Below are positions 9,859 to 57,209 of a stretch of 64,000 bases of DNA, piece by piece. Below the pieces are notes generated by a model that did no database searches, was not told where the DNA came from, and was given only the letters and a program-made list of their open reading frames with translations. Made by a program: the position numbers and the translations under genes. Positions within the stretch are counted from its first letter, which is position 1. The number at the start of each line of letters is the position of its first letter. Source of the DNA: an uncultured Bacteroidaceae bacterium. GTDB lineage: Bacteria > Bacteroidota > Bacteroidia > Bacteroidales > Bacteroidaceae. The DNA lies in NCBI GenBank assembly GCA_905235525.1, contig CAJOLW010000001.1, positions 1 through 64,000 of the forward strand, written 5' to 3'.

Positions 9859-12800
9859 ATGGTAAAACGTAATTTGGGATTGTACAGCAAAGACTACGAG
9901 CACGATGCTTGTGGTGTGGGCATGGTGGTCAACATTCATGGAGGTAAAAGCCACGAATTGGTGGACAATGCCCTGAAGGTTCTGGAGAACATGGAACACC
10001 GAGGAGCCGAAACACGTGACAAGACGGGGGACGGTGCTGGTATCTTGGTGCAGATTCCCCACGAGTTTATTCTATTGCAGGGGATTCCCGTGCCCGAAAA
10101 GGGGAAGTATGGTACAGGCTTGGTGTTCCTGCCGAAAGAGGAAGGAAGCCAACAGGAGATTCTAAACGTGATGATTGAAGAGATTGAGCGCGAGGGGCTT
10201 ACGCTGATGCATCTGCGCACTGTGCCTACATGCCCAGAGGTGCTGGGTGTGGGAGCACGAGAAGTGGAACCTGACATCAAGCAGGTGTTTGTAACGGGTG
10301 TGAACGACGAACAGGTGGAGGTGTTTGACCGTATATTATATAAGGTACGCAAAAGGATAGAGAACCGCATCACGGACGAGGATTTCTATATTTGTTCGTT
10401 GTCAAGCAAAAACATCATCTACAAGGGCATGTTGACGAGCGGTCAATTGAGACGTTACTTCCCTGACCTCTCAAGCCCCTACTTCACCAGCGGATTGGCG
10501 TTGGTTCATTCACGTTTCAGCACCAATACCTTCCCGAAGTGGAAGTTGGCACAGCCGTTCCGCTTGCTGGCTCACAACGGCGAAATCAACACGATTCGTG
10601 GCAATCGAGGTTGGATGAAAGCGCGTGAGAGCGTGTTGAGCAGTAAGGCACTGGGCAACATCAAGGACATTCGTCCTATTGTGCAGGATGACATGAGCGA
10701 CTCGGCAAGCCTCGACAATGTGTTTGAGTTTCTCACTATGAGCGGGCTGAGCCTGCCACAAGCGATGGCGATTCTGGTGCCCGAGAGTTTCAACGATAAG
10801 AACCCCATTAGCGAGGACTTGAAGGCGTTCTACGAATATCACTCCATCCTGATGGAGCCGTGGGATGGTCCTGCCGCCCTACTCTTTTCCGACGGCCGCT
10901 ATGCCGGTGGCATGTTGGACAGAAACGGCTTGCGTCCCAGCCGCTACACCATCACGAAGAGTGGTATGATGGTAGTGGCAAGCGAAGTGGGCGTGATGGA
11001 CTTTGAGCCAAGCGACGTGGTGAGCAAGGGACGTTTACAACCGGGAAAGATTCTGCTCATTGACACACTGGAAGGCCGCATCTACTACGATGGTGAAATC
11101 AAGGAACAACTCGCTAAGGCATATCCTTACCGCGAATGGCTTTCGACCAACCGCATTCAACTGGAGACACTGAAGAGCGGTCGGCACGTGGAGAATTCGG
11201 TGGAGAATTATGAGCGTAAACTGCTTAATTTCGGATTTGGCCAGGAAGATATCGACAAGACTGTGGTGCCAATGGCTACAGCAGGTCAGGAGCCTGTGGC
11301 AGCAATGGGTAATGATACCCCTTTGGCTGTCATCAGCGAACGTCCGCAAATCTTCTTCAACTACTTCCGTCAGCAATTTGCACAGGTGACCAACCCTGCT
11401 ATCGACCCGATACGTGAGGAGTTGGTGATGAGCCTGACGGAGTATATCGGTGCGGTGGGCACAAACATCCTCACACCCGATGCAAGCAATTGTAAGATGG
11501 TGCGTCTGCCTCAACCTGTACTGACCAACACACAGTTGGACATCCTCTGCAACATCCGCTATAAAGGTTTCAAGACCAAGAAACTCGCCATGCTGTTCGA
11601 CATAGAGAAGGGTGCCAGTGGATTGCGTCAAGCCATAGAAGATCTTTGCCATGAGGCTGAGGCATCGGTGGATGAAGGGGTGAATTACATCATCCTCAGC
11701 GACCGCGACATCGACGAAAAGCGTGCAGCCATTCCAAGTTTGCTGGCGGTAAGTGCGGTGCATCATTATCTCATCTCAGTACAGAAACGAGTACAAACTG
11801 CCCTCATCGTGGAAAGCGGTGAGATTCGCGAGGTGATGCATGCTGCGTTGCTGTTAGGCTATGGAGCCAGTGCCATTTGTCCTTATATGACCTTTGCCGT
11901 GCTGGATGATTTGGTGAAGAAACATAAGATTCAGGAGGAATATGCTACCGCTGAAAGCAACTACATCAAGGCGGTGGATAAGGGCTTAAAGAAGATTATG
12001 AGCAAGATGGGCATCTCGACCATCCGCTCTTATCGTGGCGCGAAGATTTTTGAGAGTATCGGACTGAGCGAAGACTTATTGAGACGCTATTTCGGTACCG
12101 AAATGAGCACCATCGGTGGCATCGGACTGAAAGAGATTGCAAGAGATGCCATCCGTCTGCACGACGAGGCTTTCAAACCTTCCGAAATCAACGAGTTCTT
12201 GCCAAACAATGGGCAATTTTCGTGGCGAAAGGACGGTATTGCTCATGCTTGGAACCCAGAAAGTATCGCCAACTTGCAGATTGCTACAAGATTGGGCAGT
12301 TACAAGAAGTTTAAGGAATGGGCAAAACTGGTGGATGAGAAGGAAAAGCCCATCTTCTTACGCGACTTCATGGGCTGGAAGAAGGCGGCTGTGCCTACTC
12401 CACTGGAGGAGGTGGAACCCGTGGAAAGTATCGTGAAACATTTTGTGACAGGTGCCATGTCGTTTGGTGCGCTGAGCATTGAGGCACATGAGGCGTTGGC
12501 TCTGGCGATGAACAAACTCGGCACACGAAGCAACACGGGTGAAGGCGGTGAGGACAATGCTCGCTATCACTCGGAGGTGGATGGCGTGAGCCTGAGTAGC
12601 AAGACGAAGCAGATAGCCAGTGGGCGTTTCGGCGTGACGGCTGAATATCTGGTGAATGCGGAGGAGATTCAGATTAAGGTGGCTCAAGGAGCCAAGCCCG
12701 GTGAAGGTGGACAACTGCCTGGTTTCAAGGTGAACAAGATTATTGCGAAGACACGCAACGCCATCCCCGGCATTTCACTCATCTCTCCCCCACCTCACCA

Positions 12801-23649: not shown

Positions 23650-23720
23650 AAGGAAGTTGTTTTTTGTTTGTTTATTGATGTATATCAAAAATAAAGCAAA
23701 AGATGTTAAATAATTATCAT

Positions 23721-23756
23721 TTTGCTTTACTATTTTATGAAAAAGCTTTACCTTTG
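23721..23756 (+). promoter_or_regulatory. Promoter of the Gln/Asn-rich leader ORF
   Basis: TACCTTTG (23749-23756) is a good -7 box. TTTG at 23721-23724 is 24 nt upstream, slightly long for a -33 box. Transcription would start near 23763, 23 nt before the small ORF. Confidence 0.6.
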
Positions 23757-23785
23757 CATTGTAAAACAAACAAAATACAAACAAT

Positions 23786-23920
23786 ATGTCATCTATAAGT
23801 GAATATTTCACAGCAGTTCTGAATCAGAACAATCAGCAGCAGAATCAGCAGCAGAACCTGAACAATCAGCAGAATCAGGCTCAGCAGATTGCTTGTTGTG
23901 GAATTCTACCAGCCGGATGA
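23786..23920 (+). CDS. Gln/Asn-rich 44-residue peptide, candidate leader peptide
   Basis: The ORF begins MSSISEYFTAVLNQ and ends with IACCGILPAG. Residues 13-34 contain 12 Gln (all CAG codons) and 8 Asn, with only one Leu and one Ala between them. A promoter lies directly upstream. A terminator-like hairpin with T-run starts 65 nt after its stop, and PII-amtB follows. I do not recognise a family. The tract, the position before nitrogen genes and the downstream hairpin suggest an attenuator leader peptide. A stand-alone secreted or regulatory micropeptide remains possible. The coding status rests on the start, stop and context only. Confidence 0.5.
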   Translation: MSSISEYFTAVLNQNNQQQNQQQNLNNQQNQAQQIACCGILPAG

Positions 23921-24024
23921 ACACATGAAGAAAGGCAAGCACAGAAGAAACACAGTACGACACAAACACAAAATAAAAATGAAGAGAGGCTGGTTCCCAT
24001 GAGGGAGTCAGCCTCCGACTTTTT
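23908..24024 (+). promoter_or_regulatory. Candidate attenuator upstream of PII-amtB
   Basis: The terminator stem is 23986-23998 with 24003-24015: 13 consecutive pairs including two G-U, with an ATGA loop, followed by T5 at 24020-24024. ACCAGCC at 23908-23914, in the last codons of the Gln/Asn-rich ORF, is fully complementary to GGCTGGT at 23988-23994 in the left arm. A ribosome ending translation at 23918 would mask the upstream segment and allow the terminator. One stalled in the Gln/Asn tract would leave it free to block the terminator. The structure is seen; the mechanism is inferred. Confidence 0.5.
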
Positions 24025-24071
24025 GAGAGAGCATTAAAACTTATTTATTTACATTAAAACACAAACACAAC

Positions 24072-24419
24072 ATGAAAAGAATCGAAGCAATTATCCGCAA
24101 GACGAAATTCGAGGATGTGAAGGAGGCCTTGCTGAAATCGGACATCGACTGGTTTGAGTACCACAACGTGCATGGCATCGGACAGACACGTGAGGAGCGC
24201 ATCTACCGCGGCGTGCAGTACTCGACCGACGTAATTGAACGCGTGGCACTGACCATCGTGTGCCGCGACCACTTTGTGGAGCCGACGGTGAAGGTCATCC
24301 TGAAGGTGGCGTACACGGGTGAAATCGGTGACGGACGCGTCTTCGTGAGCGACATGATCGACACATGGAGCATCCGCACAGGCGAGAACGGCGACACCGT
24401 ACTGAGAGATAAGAAGTAA
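24072..24419 (+). CDS. PII family nitrogen regulatory protein (GlnK/GlnB-like)
   Basis: A small trimeric signal protein that binds ATP/ADP and 2-oxoglutarate and, next to amtB, usually gates the ammonium channel. The start KRIEAIIRKTKFEDVKEAL and the end GEIGDGRVFVSD...IRTGENGD match the family. The T-loop IYRGVQY keeps a Tyr at the position of E. coli GlnB Tyr-51, though the loop is one residue shorter and GHTELYRG is altered. The length is 115 residues. It lies 42 nt before amtB. I leave the gene symbol open because the GlnB/GlnK split does not apply cleanly to Bacteroidota. Confidence 0.9.
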   Translation: MKRIEAIIRKTKFEDVKEALLKSDIDWFEYHNVHGIGQTREERIYRGVQYSTDVIERVALTIVCRDHFVEPTVKVILKVAYTGEIGDGRVFVSDMIDTWSIRTGENGDTVLRDKK

Positions 24420-24461: not shown

Positions 24462-25718
24462 ATGAACGAAATTGGATTATCACTTGATACTGTATGGATG
24501 CTTCTGGCAGCCATTCTGGTGTTCTGGATGCAACCGGGCTTTGCCCTCTGCGAGGCAGGTTTCACACGCGGAAAGAACGCCGCCAACATCCTGATGAAGA
24601 ACTTTGTCGATTTCATGCTCGGCTCACTGCTGTTCTTCGGCCTTGGCTTCGGCATCATGTTCGGCAGCGACGTGCTGGGCGGATTTATCGGTATGCCCAA
24701 CTGGGGCGCTCTCTCCTTCTATGATGGCGACCTTCCGGTGGAGGGCTTCCTGATTTTCGAGACGGTGTTCTGCGCCACCTCTGCCACCATCGTGAGCGGT
24801 GCGATGGCTGAGCGCACGAAGTTCTCCATGTACTTGGTGTACAGTGCTTTCATCTCGCTCATCATCTATCCCGTGGAGGGTCACTGGACATGGGGCGGTG
24901 GCTGGCTCTGCAACGATGCTGCCGACTCGTTCATGATGACGACTTTCGGCGACGTGTTCCATGATTTTGCCGGTTCTGCCATCGTGCATAGTGTGGGCGG
25001 TGTGCTCGCTCTCATCGGTGCCATCGTGCTGGGCCCCCGTCTCGGCAAGTATGGCAAGGACGGCAAGAGCCGTGCCATTCCCGGCCACAACCTCACTTTG
25101 GCAGCCCTCGGCGTGTTCATCCTCTGGATGGGATGGTTCGGCTTCAACCCTGGCAGTCAGTTGGCAGCGAGTGGTGAGGTGAACCGCGTGGCCATCTCGC
25201 ACGTGTTCCTGACCACCAACCTGGCGGCTGTGTCTGGCGGCGTGGCAACCATGTTCCTCACATGGTTCAAGTACGGAAAGCCTTCTCTCTCCCTGACGCT
25301 CAACGGCATCTTGGCTGGCCTCGTGGGCATTACGGCAGGTTGCGACCTCGTTTCTCCTGTCGGTGCCATCATCATCGGCCTCGTCTGCGGTGTCGTGCTG
25401 GTGTTCGCCATTGAGTTCATCGACCACAAACTGCACATTGACGACCCTGTGGGTGCTTCCTCTGTGCATGGTGTTTGCGGTATTCTCGGCACGCTCATGA
25501 CTGGTCTCCTCTCTACCAGCAATGGCGCTCTCTACGGAGGCGGCTGGGGTTTCTTCGGTGCCGAGTGCTTCGGTATCCTCGTCATCGATCTCTGGGCTGC
25601 CGCATGCGGACTCGTCCTCTTCTACAGCATCAAAAAACTGCATGGTATCCGTGTGGATGCCCGCATTGAGGAGGAAGGTCTTGACATCTATGAACATGGA
25701 GAGAGTTGCTACAACTGA
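24462..25718 (+). CDS. amtB: Ammonium transporter
   Basis: Inner-membrane Amt/Mep/Rh family channel for ammonium uptake. The sequence starts GLSLDTVWMLLAAILVFWMQ and runs through about eleven hydrophobic segments. Family motifs include FCATSATIVSGAMAER, the GGVLALIGA stretch and, late in the protein, DPVGASSVHGVCGILGT, which contains a pore-lining His. The length of 418 residues is normal. There is no long N-terminal signal. It follows PII by 42 nt, the usual pairing in which PII blocks the channel when nitrogen is plentiful. Confidence 0.97.
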   Translation: MNEIGLSLDTVWMLLAAILVFWMQPGFALCEAGFTRGKNAANILMKNFVDFMLGSLLFFGLGFGIMFGSDVLGGFIGMPNWGALSFYDGDLPVEGFLIFETVFCATSATIVSGAMAERTKFSMYLVYSAFISLIIYPVEGHWTWGGGWLCNDAADSFMMTTFGDVFHDFAGSAIVHSVGGVLALIGAIVLGPRLGKYGKDGKSRAIPGHNLTLAALGVFILWMGWFGFNPGSQLAASGEVNRVAISHVFLTTNLAAVSGGVATMFLTWFKYGKPSLSLTLNGILAGLVGITAGCDLVSPVGAIIIGLVCGVVLVFAIEFIDHKLHIDDPVGASSVHGVCGILGTLMTGLLSTSNGALYGGGWGFFGAECFGILVIDLWAAACGLVLFYSIKKLHGIRVDARIEEEGLDIYEHGESCYN

Positions 25719-57015: not shown

Positions 57016-57089
57016 AGCCTCTTGTCGGATTCGAACCAACGACCCCGAGATTACAAATCACGTGCTCTGGCCAACTGAGCTAAAGAGGC
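57016..57089 (-). tRNA. tRNA-Thr (anticodon TGT)
   Basis: A 74-nt cloverleaf on the minus strand with acceptor GCCTCTT/AAGAGGC and anticodon loop TTTGTAATC, anticodon TGT. It lies directly downstream of the SRP RNA in the same direction, so it is probably co-transcribed. Confidence 0.95.
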
Positions 57090-57090
57090 G

Positions 57091-57190
57091 GGTGGGTAAG
57101 CTGACTACATCGCGCCGCTACAACCAAGTACCCTTGCTGCGGTCAAGCCCTGGGGGAATTCCGAGGGAGCTGGCCGTATAGGACTTACCC
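57091..57190 (-). ncRNA. ffs: Signal recognition particle RNA, small bacterial type
   Basis: The minus strand gives a rod whose ends GGGTAAG and CTTACCC pair. It contains a CAGGGC..GACCGCAGCAAGGG tip, like the SRP domain IV core (CAGG opposite AGCAG), and a GATGTAG segment also found in E. coli 4.5S RNA. A strong promoter ends about 15 nt upstream. The gene lies 0.8 kb from ffh, its protein partner. The tip loop differs from the canonical GGAA tetraloop, so another structured RNA is possible. Confidence 0.75.
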
Positions 57191-57209
57191 GTTTTTTCGT
57201 TTGCGGGTG

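Follow-up and report, generated by a model that had tools for sequence, protein, structure and literature searches.

Leader-peptide attenuators control the trp, his, leu and ilv operons, in which a promoter is followed by a short open reading frame (ORF) enriched in codons of the regulated amino acid, a downstream intrinsic terminator, a complementary segment that overlaps this terminator, and genes of the matching pathway. T-box leaders sense tRNA charging by binding the tRNA itself and control a terminator. An upstream ORF is reported for Corynebacterium ilvB (PMC11109978), and leader peptides are reported before amino-acid biosynthesis operons of Flavobacterium psychrophilum (PMC9723704), which belongs to the phylum of the bacterium studied here and for which the same class of mechanism is proposed; the portion of that article available to us names no Gln/Asn leader, amtB, gltB or asnB. 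Glutamine riboswitches and a gltD riboswitch candidate, which bind or may bind glutamine directly, are further examples of RNA control of glutamine and glutamate genes (PMC8632094). Among the strongest nitrogen responders of Prevotella ruminicola 23 are the genes encoding PII, AmtB, AsnB, GlnN and GltBD, with nitrogen-dependent fold changes of 69 for amtB, 58 for PRU_1977, 46 for glnK, 38 for asnB, 35 for glnN and 27-33 for gltBD (PMC5552732). According to the introduction of that article, the regulation of such nitrogen genes remained to be characterized, and the portion available gives no mechanism; it is also inconsistent as to which state induces these genes, ammonium limitation or ammonium excess. 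Induction by excess ammonium would oppose the reading given below, if P. ruminicola 23 had the switch.

Here, we describe a leader that precedes the PII and amtB genes in a 64,000-nucleotide stretch of DNA from an uncultured Bacteroidaceae bacterium (the window; Table 1). Judged from its sequence, we put the probability that it is a ribosome-controlled transcription attenuator, measuring the charging of Gln- and Asn-tRNA, at about 0.8. It is built like the trp, his, leu and ilv attenuators, but would read two amide amino acids together, has ammonium transport and PII among its targets, and carries its candidate anti-terminator in a hairpin loop after a long codon tract. Like a T-box, it would sense tRNA charging to control a terminator; in contrast to T-boxes and glutamine riboswitches, it has a codon tract, which is the proposed sensor, and no Rfam match. 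Rfam searches returned no family at 23700-24075 up to an E-value of 10 and none in the leader at gathering scores, and thus placed it neither with the glutamine riboswitches or T-boxes nor in any other Rfam family. We know of no earlier leader-peptide attenuator for ammonium uptake, and an incomplete literature search, covering titles and the starts of abstracts, found no Gln/Asn leader peptide or amtB attenuator. If the reading is correct, the leader would be the first of its kind known to us and a simple RNA answer to nitrogen sensing in part of this group of gut bacteria, and it may show a loop-displayed form of anti-termination. The finding is larger than the initial annotation of this DNA reported, which overlooked both the hairpin that carries ACCAGCC and the other target operons.

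Table 1. Features of the leader and of the genes downstream, in window coordinates
Feature	Position	Strand	Basis or remarks
Promoter: TTTG 23721-23724, -7 element TACCTTTG 23749-23756	23721..23756	+	consensus fit
Leader ORF, 44 codons, ATG start, stop TGA 23918-23920	23786..23920	+	sequence, ORF scan
Gln/Asn codon tract, 20/22 codons	23822..23887	+	12 CAG, 5 AAT, 3 AAC
Hairpin domain, folded alone	23890..23941	+	single fold; RNAalifold (15 leaders) finds P2 and P3; P1 search
P1	23890-23896 with 23935-23941	+	P1 helix search, single fold
P2	23897-23900 with 23922-23925	+	single fold, RNAalifold
P3, 8-base loop 23907-23914	23903-23906 with 23915-23918	+	single fold, RNAalifold
Segment B, ACCAGCC, apical loop, candidate anti-terminator strand	23908..23914	+	folds, alignment
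Segment C, terminator left arm (GGCTGGT 23988-23994 complementary to B)	23986..23998	+	scan, RNAalifold, covariation
Segment D, terminator right arm	24003..24015	+	scan, RNAalifold, covariation
T5 tail of terminator	24020..24024	+	sequence
PII nitrogen regulatory protein	24072..24419	+	PF00543
Ammonium transporter AmtB	24462..25718	+	PF00909
TorF-like protein, 239 aa	25795..26514	+	relatives accompany PII-amtB

The layout upstream of PII-amtB, which stand in tandem behind the leader, is as first described: a 44-codon ORF with 12 Gln and 8 Asn codons within 22 codons, a 13-bp terminator stem and a run of five T. As for the promoter, TACCTTTG agrees with the Bacteroides -7 consensus TAnnTTTG, which is accompanied by an upstream TTTG (PMC7366714); a sigma-70 scan of the forward strand found nothing. 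The motif CTTTGCA occurs in 15 of 15 distinct aligned leaders, having itself been used, with 0 failures, to cut these sequences. The third protein of the locus, which we call TorF-like, has no Pfam or NCBIfam match. Elsewhere in the window, on the reverse strand at 57016-57197, a small SRP RNA (Bacteroidales type, 57090-57197) and a tRNA-Thr gene (57016-57089) lie immediately side by side, not a single base separating them.

Between this consensus-defined promoter and the gene that it would serve lies the short leader ORF, whose product is MSSISEYFTAVLNQNNQQQNQQQNLNNQQNQAQQIACCGILPAG and in which codons 13-34 hold the Gln/Asn tract. Among ATG-started ORFs of 12-110 residues (stop counted) on both strands of the whole 64-kb window, it is the sole one with at least nine Gln or Asn per 20 residues; its own score is 18. 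At the background of 7.9% Gln and Asn in the 37 long window ORFs, the binomial chance of such a score in a single stretch is about 2e-18. The start codon is conserved across 15 aligned relatives, as is the tract, while the peptide sequence varies. The codons are those of pathway products, the targets in relatives including amtB, gltB, asnB and glnN. Two observations count against the attenuator reading. Some leaders are poorer in these codons: that before an ATP-grasp gene has, as tabulated, just six Gln and two Asn, and those before gltB have one or two Gln each. Codon-position counts, moreover, show neither a clear coding constraint nor the clear third-position excess that would be a sign of translation.

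Codon choice within the tracts is uneven. Gln is encoded by CAG 457 times and by CAA 30 times (487 in total), and Asn by AAT in 558 of 688 cases, in 73 leader rows that count six loci twice; in the 37 long window ORFs, the corresponding figures are 371 CAG of 634 (263 CAA) and 321 AAT of 755. Taken alone, the window leader has a significant bias to CAG (12 to 0, Fisher P 0.002) and a non-significant one to AAT (5 to 3, P 0.30). Among 49 tRNA matches, the genome has one tRNA-Gln(CTG), one tRNA-Gln(TTG) and two tRNA-Asn(GTT) genes. Other leaders likewise prefer particular codons, and the preference for CAG and AAT could possibly have a reason at the RNA level.

The tract is followed by a hairpin in whose apical loop segment B usually lies. 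RNAalifold, applied to 15 leaders, predicts a hairpin with a 7-base loop, ACCAG(C/U)C (UCCAGCC in L010), together with the terminator, and the 144-nt attenuator region is more stable than its shuffled versions (z -2.3; 3/200 equally good). Folds and P1 were analysed in 33 of the 67 leaders described below. In 22 of these 33 minimum-energy folds, a hairpin loop holds B and leaves six or seven of its seven bases unpaired, an arrangement that only 0-6 of 100 flank shuffles give in an equally stable fold; in six more, B lies in a hairpin with four or five of the seven bases open, and in the remaining five it is outside any hairpin loop. The sequence of P1 varies by family (GCUUG:CAAGC, GCUUA:UGAGC, UCUCUGUUGUUCG:UGAACAAUAGAGA and GGAUGGUUA:UAAUCAUUC). 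As P1 was defined as the best available helix in each leader, finding it in 33 of 33 is no evidence in itself; in comparison with flank shuffles, it is modest for single PII leaders of genus g1, where 5 to 57 of 200 shuffles do as well, and strong for those of genus g45, where 0 to 4 of 200 do. P1 starts 2-12 nt past the last Gln or Asn codon in 31 of the 33, and the stop codon falls within the best P1 domain in 32 (in L147 it lies 9 nt beyond), so that a ribosome completing the leader must unfold the hairpin.

The reading frame runs into this hairpin without a fixed register. Relative to the leader ORF, B may begin in any of the three frames, and within g1 the end of the stop codon lies either four bases upstream of B or 13 or 21 bases past its start; the element is thus kept as RNA and not as peptide, which indicates that selection acts on the RNA around B rather than on the peptide end. 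The core of B reads ACCAG in 40 of 73 rows, ACCGG in 18, GCCAG in 14 (one a wrong pick, L010) and UCCAG in one (L141). The spacer between hairpin and terminator (23941-23985) is poor in G and T and rich in A and C, as in other g1 leaders, and resembles the stretch that precedes the PII start codon. Perhaps it is no more than a region that remains free of structure.

Downstream, the terminator (23986-24015) has 13 pairs and a loop of four, with -21.1 kcal/mol when folded alone. A scan of 1 kb gave one terminator-like match, equal to the shuffle average (mean 1.0). In alignment A4 (22 sequences, 21 distinct), the hairpin and terminator together have 97.8% of cells paired, versus 32-46% when slid, and a covariation score of 0.162, versus 0.103 in shuffled alignments, with none of 500 as high. 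The number of cells with two-sided change likewise exceeds all 500 shuffles; the pairs with such change number two and the further pair types 13, values that 430 and 408 of 500 shuffles match, respectively. Both two-sided pairs are located in the terminator, which on its own has 99.2% of cells paired with these two compensatory pairs and is of the intrinsic type; the changes in the hairpin are one-sided.

The pairing that would compete with the terminator is that of B with C. The full complementarity of ACCAGCC to GGCTGGT, pointed out in the initial annotation, is exact, and is weak evidence when taken alone: at the window locus, 11 of 500 shuffles contain a Watson-Crick run of seven, and 144 of 500 one that allows G-U. 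Across 73 rows, B:C has six to eight contiguous pairs, just six in the 22 asnB rows and in 5 of the 23 PII rows of genus g48, and cognate B and C segments pair no better than swapped ones (6.54 versus 6.49). Conservation of the B and C cores is partly by construction, since their letters served as a search key. The alternative pairing was expected to covary in relatives; in A4, it is preserved in 98.6% of cells with zero two-sided changes, and hairpin plus B:C scores 0.068, against 0.065 in shuffles, 252 of 500 being as high. Since it is preserved without two-sided change, B:C is a step that we infer and not one proven by covariation. C of all five gltB leaders has an A that pairs with the U of B and that, in four of the five, mispairs with the right arm, which is suggestive of B:C pairing. 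Taken together, a competing anti-terminator pairing of B with C is likely. As the terminator is more stable than B:C, with a predicted energy of -21.1 versus -11.8 for B:C (-9.1 in the case of the U variant), B:C would have to prevail by forming first, ahead of the synthesis of D.

In the model that we favour, scarcity of Gln- or Asn-tRNA would stall the ribosome within the tract, whereupon the downstream hairpin would fold and expose B, and B would pair with C as C leaves RNA polymerase, so that no terminator forms and transcription continues into the operon. With both tRNAs in the charged state, the ribosome would reach the stop codon inside the hairpin domain and unfold the hairpin, leaving C to pair with D and cause termination. 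The anti-terminator is perhaps displayed in the hairpin loop. The tract is long and starts 38-68 nt upstream of P1 in the 33 leaders, which suggests that a stall anywhere within it is supposed to let the hairpin form, and with such length the exact stall position would not matter to the switch; this favours a display role over restraint as in trp, if not strongly. In four gltB leaders, the stop codon ends 39 nt past the start of B, so a ribosome terminating there would not cover B and could act only by opening P1. A bolder version, which we hold tentatively and at somewhat less than even odds, is that of a protein-free nitrogen regulon in part of the Bacteroidaceae, in which Gln/Asn leaders jointly switch PII-amtB, gltB and asnB-glnN-gltB through an anti-terminator that is loop-displayed, by a pseudoknot or kissing contact with the terminator arm, and not stem-borne.

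The alternative that survives best is a sub-model of the same switch, whose odds overlap those of the explanation above: the logic, on in starvation, is the same and the role of the hairpin is the opposite, in that it would restrain B until a ribosome that has stalled on the last codons of the tract covers the 5' strand of P1 and frees B. The stalled ribosome frees the anti-terminator strand of the trp leader in this restraining manner, and the short distance from the last Gln or Asn codon to P1 means that a ribosome stalled there would cover P1. A stall at the first codons of the tract, in contrast, would leave the hairpin intact and result in termination, a poor design for a long tract, and in the 22 folds mentioned above B is open in the loop rather than held in a stem. 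On balance we consider restraint unlikely, while taking it seriously.

That the ORF encodes a functional small Gln/Asn-rich protein, with a terminator that merely lowers transcription into PII-amtB, would account for the conserved start codon and composition. The peptide, however, changes freely, with 88 non-synonymous versus 10 synonymous alternative codons in 15 g1 leaders (a count affected by poor alignment of the repetitive tract), and the product matches nothing in Pfam or NCBIfam. Its C-terminus shifts frame over the conserved RNA element, and the tabulated loci, the ATP-grasp case excepted, all precede nitrogen-assimilation operons, which together make this explanation improbable. Equally improbable is a translation-independent sensor, either a riboswitch or a protein-binding hairpin, next to an incidental ORF: such a device would explain the conserved hairpin with its almost invariant loop and the intrinsic terminator, but the stems vary by family while the Gln/Asn tract stays, and the Rfam search described above, up to its permissive limit, found none. 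Chance placement of a low-complexity ORF before an ordinary terminator can be dismissed, since, for all that the single-locus statistics for B:C and P1 are modest and one terminator-like site per kb is expected, 67 recurrences before PII, gltB, asnB and ATP-grasp genes and a covarying terminator are decisive against it.

The attenuator reading of the initial annotation thus gains support from recurrence before PII-amtB, gltB and asnB-glnN-gltB, with B:C lacking covariation as its weaker side. Leaders of the same build were tabulated at 67 loci (73 table rows minus six loci entered twice) in three genera, g1, g45 and g48, of one family. They stand before PII-amtB, gltB, asnB (followed by type III glutamine synthetase and gltB) and one ATP-grasp gene; most of these targets import ammonium or make Gln, Asn or Glu, which fits a Gln/Asn sensor. 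Very probably, then, a family of Gln/Asn attenuators guards nitrogen-assimilation operons in the three sampled genera of this one Bacteroidales family.

The orthologue comparison proposed in the initial annotation came out mostly positive: part of the PII-amtB loci have a Gln/Asn-rich ORF, a covarying terminator and the matching complementary segment, and many relatives have PII with no such leader close by. Queries with the PII protein retrieved 30 loci (61 genomes searched) and the best 80 of 571 named relatives, two partly overlapping sets; the nearest named relatives of the window, among these best 80 of 571, are records of rumen Prevotella, Prevotellaceae and Bacteroidaceae. A leader lies within 450 nt of PII in 23 of 111 sequences (the window and its copy L001 counted), giving 15 distinct leaders. 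The element is absent within this distance from the other 88, which include L030, with a leader farther upstream before TorF, and L064, for which only 109 nt upstream are available. In a tree of PII and AmtB, restricted to the loci listed, rooted at the midpoint and judged by eye (L030 being unlabelled despite its leader before TorF), leader-bearing and leader-free loci are interleaved and the leader stands before two divergent lineages. This uneven distribution among close relatives makes it possible to compare strains that have the switch with strains that lack it.

The 15 leaders served to build a covariance model, R1, with which 45 genomes from the genus and 399 from the family were scanned. 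In g1, leaders comprise the 15 distinct PII-amtB cases and those of a second PII-amtB copy (L141), a TorF-PII-amtB operon (L147) and a circularly permuted ATP-grasp gene (L145). Searching 17 g45 genomes gave leaders in six genomes; in g45, five leaders are in PII-amtB operons, where asnB is behind amtB in four of five and TorF comes first in three, and five leaders are before gltB. Searching 37 g48 genomes gave 20 leaders before PII (from 22 rows, of which L369 is unmatched and L370 has a tract without an ORF) and 19 before asnB (from 22 rows, with a tract without an ORF in L333, none in L336 and L341 unmatched). In the three g48 asnB loci that were read beyond asnB, the gene behind it encodes type III glutamine synthetase, and gltB is next in two. 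Weak R1 matches at L143, L144, L149-L152 and L159-L162 look like ordinary terminators and were rejected; L163-L165 and other weak matches were left out of the locus reading.

Other searches of the family, starting from the target genes, found few leaders. Another 40 PII loci, out of 71 genomes with a match, yielded five in their upstream regions, L175 in g1, L178 in g45 and L193-L195 in g48, and none at the g45 loci L184 and L187 (the latter with only 143 nt upstream). The 30 loci upstream of gltB (64 genomes with a match) have a leader only at L215 (g45), and the 30 upstream of asnB (66 genomes with a match) only at L271 (g48); L260 and L261, also upstream of asnB, passed the Gln/Asn filter and were rejected as unlike this leader. 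Within the window itself, neither gltB (start near 9859) nor asnB (29309) is preceded by a Gln/Asn leader. An order-wide search for nine consecutive MAB codons gave matches in 175 of 393 genomes, mostly His/Lys/Asn repeats among the matches listed; of 30 loci examined from it, only L291 besides the window passed the filter, and L291 was rejected as unlike this leader.

Several individual loci deserve mention. At L145 (G010), the leader precedes the circularly permuted ATP-grasp gene, which suggests a nitrogen link for this enzyme; a near-identical leader lies at a contig end (L142 in G036, outside the 67 loci), and the homologous ATP-grasp loci L245-L247 have none. One genome, G024, has two PII-amtB operons, L141 and L018, each with its own diverged Gln/Asn leader. 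At L336 (G359), asnB lies directly behind amtB and has no leader of its own, and at L334 (G296), one extra A in the tract, either an assembly error or real, shifts the frame of the leader ORF. Finally, at L171 (G316), a leader of the g45 type precedes a TorF-PII-AmtB operon whose PII and AmtB are of a distant lineage, as though the leader and the operon had been put together anew.
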